From: Bifidobacteriaceae bacterium
GTDB lineage: Bacteria; Actinomycetota; Actinomycetes; Actinomycetales; WQXJ01
Length of the DNA stretch: 33,546 nt
Direction: 5' to 3'
Assembly: GCA_031255835.1 (NCBI GenBank)
Contig: JAIRRT010000059.1
Coordinates: 1 to 33,546 of the forward strand
Shown: one piece after another, positions 22,632 to 23,108 of the stretch
How positions within the stretch are numbered: position 1 is the stretch's first letter
Layout: every line of letters starts with the position of its first letter
Notes under the pieces: generated by a model
What the model was told of the DNA's origin: nothing
What the model saw: the letters and a program-made list of their open reading frames with translations, nothing else
The model's database searches: none
Program-made: the position numbers and the translations under genes

Positions 22632-22666
22632 CGAAGGCCTCGCCAGCTGAGCCAGCGAGGCCTTCG
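22632..22666 (-). terminator. Stem-loop terminator after cspA
   Basis: A perfect 12-bp inverted repeat, CGAAGGCCTCGC (22632-22643) and its complement (22655-22666), with an 11-nt loop, begins about 20 bp downstream of the cspA stop. On the minus strand it is followed by GTCTGTCTGG rather than a strong T-run, so it is an actinobacterial-style terminator by shape. It lies 74 bp before dinB. Confidence 0.75.
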
Positions 22667-22686: not shown

Positions 22687-22890
22687 CTAGAGCATCCTGA
22701 CCTTCGATGCCTGGATTCCTTTGTCGCCACGGGCGACTTCGAATTCCACGGCTTGGCCTTCGTCCAGCGACTTGTACCCATCGGCGTCAATCGCGGACCA
22801 ATGAACGAAGACGTCAGGGCCGCCCGCGTCCTGCTCGATGAAGCCGTAGCCCTTGTCGGGGCTGAACCACTTCACTTTTCCTGTTGCCAT
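22687..22890 (-). CDS. cspA: Cold-shock protein, CspA family
   Basis: A single-strand RNA/DNA-binding chaperone of 67 residues, one cold-shock domain. RNP1 is KGYGFIEQ (residues 13-20) and RNP2 is VFVHWSAI (27-34). The first is preceded by GKVKWFSPD, all typical. The ATG at 22890 has AAGGA about ten bases upstream. It is probably monocistronic, with a terminator downstream and a structured leader upstream. Paralogs are common, so whether this one responds to cold cannot be told from the protein. Confidence 0.95.
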
Positions 22891-22907
22891 CGGCTGTCTG
22901 TCCTTTC

Positions 22908-22940
22908 GGGGACTGTCGAGTCCCCGCGAATCTCGCGGGG
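22908..22940 (-). promoter_or_regulatory. cspA leader with two mutually exclusive hairpins
   Basis: In mRNA sense, CCCCGCGA-gat-TCGCGGGG (22940-22922) forms a perfect 8-bp stem. GGGGACT-cgac-AGTCCCC (22925-22908) forms a perfect 7-bp stem. The four G of 22925-22922 are needed by both, so only one can form at a time. The SD sequence GAAAGGA begins immediately after the second stem. Further upstream, ACCTGCC/GGCAGGT (22980-22986 with 22944-22950) could pair. Switching that exposes or buries the ribosome site is inferred. Confidence 0.65.
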
Positions 22941-23108
22941 CGTACCTGCCGCAATGTCTTGCGATGTCGTTCCGTGCTGGGCAGGTCTACCCTGGGCCGA
23001 GCTTGGTGCCGCAAACCTCAAATCACTGCTGCACCGCACAGCATGACAGGAAAACCAAGTGCGGTCCACCCCATCGGGCCAAAAGCCGCAACAGTGGCGG
23101 CGCGCCGG

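Follow-up and report, generated by a model that had tools for sequence, protein, structure and literature searches.

A conserved hairpin element in the 5' leader of a PAC2-linked actinomycete csp gene

Introduction

Cold-shock proteins (CSPs) bind RNA and melt its secondary structure (PMC7858274). How they are controlled in actinobacteria is poorly known, and the published cases rest on the E. coli cspA model by way of Rfam. The C. glutamicum cspA gene (cg0215) has a 181-nt leader whose start was mapped by RNA-seq (PMC3890552). This leader was labelled RF01766 by Rfam match only, and the same paper calls the label unproven. Cold raises M. smegmatis cspA by only about 2-fold (PMC10454040). Such weak cold induction means that cold regulation may not apply to the csp gene studied here. 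Because the source organism is likewise an actinobacterium, and an uncultured one, the cspA of enterobacteria makes a poor reference.

A sequence-only reading of this locus proposed that two competing hairpins in the csp leader form an RNA switch. Here we compare the leader with those of relatives.

Results

The csp locus

The window is the whole 33,546-nt stretch of DNA analysed, and its genome is a 2.2-Mb draft assembly of 206 contigs. The csp gene (22687..22890, minus strand; 22690-22890 without the stop codon) encodes a 67-aa cold-shock protein that matches the Pfam cold-shock domain (CSD; PF00313, E 1.2e-27). A PAC2-family gene (PF09754; 23109..24026, minus strand) lies upstream and a DinB-type polymerase gene downstream, all on the minus strand. 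The PAC2 gene marks the csp ortholog. It is found on the same strand as csp at 28 of 30 motif loci, and the compared leaders therefore belong to one csp ortholog. The source genome has a second cold-shock-domain gene (G000:C70:5987-6178, L002; a 150-aa open frame) whose leader differs. Right behind the csp stop codon is a 12-bp perfect inverted repeat without a T run (CGAAGGCCTCGC/GCGAGGCCTTCG, 22632-22666), a possible terminator candidate that would leave csp monocistronic.

Three overlapping helices

Read as RNA on the minus strand, the csp leader is AAGACAUUGCGGCAGGUACG-CCCCGCGA-GAU-UCGCGGGG-ACUCGACAGUCCCCGAAAGGACAGACAGCCG-AUG. Stem 1, here called P1 and singled out by covariation, is CCCCGCGA-GAU-UCGCGGGG (in DNA form CCCCGCGA-GAT-TCGCGGGG; 22922..22940, minus strand; -14.6 kcal/mol). 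Stem 2 is an alternative helix, CGGGGACU-CGAC-AGUCCCCG in RNA form and CGGGGACT-CGAC-AGTCCCCG in DNA form (22907..22926, minus strand), which is present in the window but not conserved. Its 7-bp form has an energy of -11.1 kcal/mol, and it reaches 8 bp once one further C-G pair is added. The Shine-Dalgarno (SD) sequence GAAAGGA was read directly (22901..22907, minus strand), and its first G falls inside the 8-bp form of stem 2. Both stems had been placed on the minus strand, where both were found. They are mutually exclusive, as had been claimed, through a shared stretch of five bases (CGGGG) rather than four G residues, and stem 2 has 8 bp rather than the 7 bp first given. A third overlapping helix around the SD had been overlooked. 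This helix, GUCC-CCGAAA-GGAC (22900-22913), has its GUCC in common with stem 2 and overlaps the SD in part.

Perfect hairpins of at least 7 bp number 18 in the window against a simulated mean of 21.1. There is one pair of competing hairpins against a simulated mean of 0.22, and one or more such pairs appear in 18% of first-order-Markov simulations (33.5 kb). Neither the hairpin counts nor the competing pair exceeds chance across the window, which leaves the geometry by itself as weak evidence. What is significant is the position in a csp leader and the conservation of stem 1 elsewhere.

Promoter and transcription start

In 29 of the 39 csp leaders scanned, a phylogenetic footprint, TG-N-CANN(A/C)T, lies 3-8 nt ahead of a G(T/G/C)TGC(A/G)G-type element. 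In the window this corresponds to a probable extended -10 (cctgtCATGCT; 23040..23045, minus strand). Sequence comparison puts the transcription start site (TSS)-proximal element GGTGCAGCAGTGA (23023..23035, minus strand) at the 5' end of the inferred leader. It is identical in a same-family genome (G005, L204) and aligns with GTTGCAG of other families. From the footprint we infer that csp transcription starts near 23035, which would give a leader of 145 nt. Inferred leaders across relatives are 108-186 nt long, in line with the 181 nt mapped for C. glutamicum cspA (PMC3890552). Transcription thus likely starts upstream of stem 1; the sequence-only reading depended on there being no start downstream of 22940, and the footprint speaks against one.

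A long-range helix between the TSS element and CAUUGCGGC, both of them UGC elements, was suggested by RNAalifold and by eye, but a swap test did not support it (p=0.66). In 11 of 119 leaders the stretch from the TSS element to P1 contains a GC hairpin and a T run that together resemble a terminator, against 4.9 expected from shuffles. Carriers outside the window's family are L012, L027, L030, L218, L238 and L248 (upstream of csp), as well as L251 and L252, and there are class-level examples too. These hairpins look like attenuators. E. coli CspA-family proteins are known antiterminators.

A leader element conserved in the order

We searched 396 order-level genomes with an exact pattern of two shared blocks, CAUUGCGGC and UCCCCGRAAGGA, which flank a spacer that bears a hairpin. 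In the element as defined here, these parts lie no more than about 70 nt from the start of csp. Twenty genomes matched, all directly upstream of a csp ATG, and the reversed control pattern gave 0. The window matches at 22901-22956; it belongs to the defining set, and its match is not independent. The 20 rows were aligned with MAFFT without fitting to structure (alignment A2). Variation in A2 falls on the hairpin arms and spacers and hardly touches the blocks CAUUGCGGCA and GUCCCCGRAAGGACA, most of both being demanded by the pattern. The element CATTGCGGCA (22947..22956, minus strand), 5' of the hairpin, is identical in all 20 rows, its first nine bases lying within the search pattern, and has variant forms in other families. 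Block GUCCCCGGAAGGACA stays constant while the spacers on its sides change.

A covariance model, R1, found 58 of the 396 order genomes at E<=0.01, the f1 relatives G005, G008 and G013 among them. It scores the window, one of its 20 training rows, at 61.9 bits (E 6e-13). At class level R1 added three further csp leaders beyond the order, and the weak matches that were checked all lie upstream of csp. Nine f4 matches (L200, L205, L206, L210, L211, L215-L217 and L219) have no csp behind them and were treated as probable false positives.

P1 shows two-sided changes at 7 of 9 pairs in A2. For the whole structure, 93.8% of cells are paired and the score for covariation, 0.340, lies above the shuffles (0.188; 0 of 500 as high) and the slid registers (at most 0.152). 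Alignment A3 holds the 66 distinct R1 matches fitted to the model, with the nine non-csp f4 matches kept in the pair counts. Here P1 covaries at 9 of 9 pairs (score 0.536 vs 0.173), and in A3 as in A2 its covariation is higher than in any of the 500 shuffles or any slid register. A2 is the cleaner test, because A3 is model-fitted and includes the nine non-csp matches. The helix is paired in the window member. Stem 1 therefore passed the covariation check that had been proposed for it, in A2 and in A3, and comparison across leaders points to compensatory selection on this 8-9-bp hairpin. The P1 loop is GAU in the window and of an ACAGG type in most relatives, where it is common but variable, which makes the window a diverged member. 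On these alignments the leader is a diverged member of an actinomycete PAC2-linked csp-leader element. The element is apparently uncatalogued: no description of it was found in the open-access literature searched.

Stem 2 is confined to the window genome

The same check failed for stem 2. Mapped onto A2, it is paired in 36.0% of cells vs 36.3% in shuffles, with no covariation, and among the relatives compared it is present in the window genome only. We predicted folds at 4-45 C. Short transcripts gave 0.92-0.97 for stem 1, 0.77-0.90 for the SD hairpin and 0.04-0.05 for stem 2. The inferred full-length transcript is predicted to be near-isoenergetic between the two stems (stem 1, 0.46-0.67; stem 2, 0.52-0.81), and its temperature trend runs in opposite directions with 60 nt vs 21 nt of coding sequence. 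No consistent temperature response of the stem 1/stem 2 balance emerged in these predicted folds; the transcript ends decide the balance. A mutually exclusive two-hairpin switch needs both helices conserved, and stem 2 is not. With neither conservation of stem 2 nor a consistent temperature response, the proposed RNA switch did not hold up, and a two-hairpin thermoswitch is unlikely. The G4/C4 arms of the window lineage most likely gave rise to stem 2 by accident.

Pairing around the SD

Block GTCCCCGAAAGGAC (22900..22913, minus strand) holds the SD and is nearly invariant in A2. It may form a weak SD hairpin, P2, from GUCC/GGAC (about -3.5 kcal/mol). GUCC/GGAC is in every A2 row, and invariant sequence is uninformative on pairing. 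Its paired share is 95.6% in A3, where two-sided changes are few. SD structure was tested against shuffles over csp leaders collected by protein search, an unbiased set. SD-sequestering structure was not enriched across these leaders (for local energy the trend ran the other way, p=0.06), nor were SD-spanning pairs (p=0.91) or structure in the segment after P1 (p=0.13), and SD accessibility was slightly above shuffles (p=0.011). A general SD hairpin in csp leaders is not supported, as no shuffle test gave enrichment. P2 stands as a possible, predicted SD hairpin. The f9 leader L187 retains GUCC-CCGGAU-GGAC although its SD has shifted downstream, which hints at a role for this pairing independent of the SD. 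The f9 leaders L187, L194, L198 and L202 carry GUCC (or GUC) ahead of two GGAC copies, of which the second forms the SD (e.g. GUCCCCGGAUGGACAGAAGGAC), a layout in which GUCC could select either copy. An alternative pairing under P1, UUGCGG/CCGGAA, is predicted in some relatives, and both of its sides are nearly invariant.

Discussion

Comparison among relatives establishes the element, its place and the pairing of P1 as features of sequence, and the element probably regulates csp translation or mRNA stability in cis. The reading that we favour, with moderate confidence, is a PAC2-linked cis regulator of csp composed of the TSS element, an internal element, P1 and the SD block, which would affect csp translation or the stability of its mRNA. 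On this reading csp would be transcribed with a 5' leader of about 145 nt, and the feature would make up its 3' half. In order, such a leader would present the TSS-proximal G(U/G/C)UGC(A/G)G, a CAUUGCGGCA-like element, P1 and, shortly after P1, the GUCCCC-GRAAGGAC block with the SD. P1 would fold first and keep upstream leader sequence away from the ribosome-binding site. It would also isolate and position the SD block, with the SD sitting in the short, weakly paired GUCC/GGAC segment. Opening of this segment by the ribosome or, presumably, by Csp as an RNA chaperone could then result in autoregulation. A structure-conserved RNA element in which P1 and the UGC(A/G)G repeats are what Csp reads, with autoregulation by a route unlike that of the enterobacterial cspA thermosensor, is a tentative proposal that may well not apply.

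P1 could instead have no regulatory part and serve mainly to stabilise or insulate a highly expressed mRNA, protecting it from RNases and screening the SD from sequence upstream. This would explain why the pairing of P1 is kept while its sequence drifts, and it agrees with csp SDs being slightly more accessible than shuffles. However, the invariant flanking blocks and the recurrent ACAGG-type loop of relatives suggest specific recognition, and we regard a purely structural role as rather unlikely. In a two-state switch, stem 1 and the SD hairpin would leave the SD partly closed, and stem 2 would capture GUCC and leave the SD open, driven by temperature or by Csp. The topology suits this, as stem 2 removes GUCC from GGAC, and so do the near-equal energies of the two states in the inferred full-length transcript. 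Yet relatives lack stem 2, the temperature trend flips with transcript length, stem 1 and the SD hairpin prevail at every temperature in short transcripts, and the geometry does not exceed chance across the window; such a switch is improbable. The agreement of the window's hairpin numbers with simulation would fit functionless chance inverted repeats. For stem 2 this is the likely explanation. For P1 it is disfavoured by covariation, and together with the empty reversed control and PAC2 synteny this makes chance a very improbable account of the leader as a whole.

The closest actinobacterial case, the C. glutamicum cspA 5'-UTR, resembles the present leader in being a long, mapped csp leader (181 nt), and the excerpted description of it contains no P1-type hairpin (PMC3890552). 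The Rfam cspA thermoregulator of E. coli (RF01766) shares with it a structured 5' leader of a CSD-family gene and a weak Rfam overlap. The match (22713-22942) is largely coding sequence and scores 24.7 bits, where the gathering score is 78, and neither the window nor seven relatives gave a gathering-level Rfam match. The helix conserved here is another one, in a leader of about 145 nt. This bears out the suggestion that the leader is structured in a way unlike that of enterobacterial cspA. SD-sequestering RNA thermometers of the ROSE and fourU types share a possible short helix over the SD, which is predicted here, but neither fourU nor ROSE sequence was seen in the csp leader. Thermometers of this kind open when heated, whereas cold induction would need the opposite sign. 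The covarying leader, tied to one syntenic csp ortholog, offers a defined RNA that is testable in relatives with finished genomes, and the E. coli cspA label does not transfer to this actinomycete csp-leader element.
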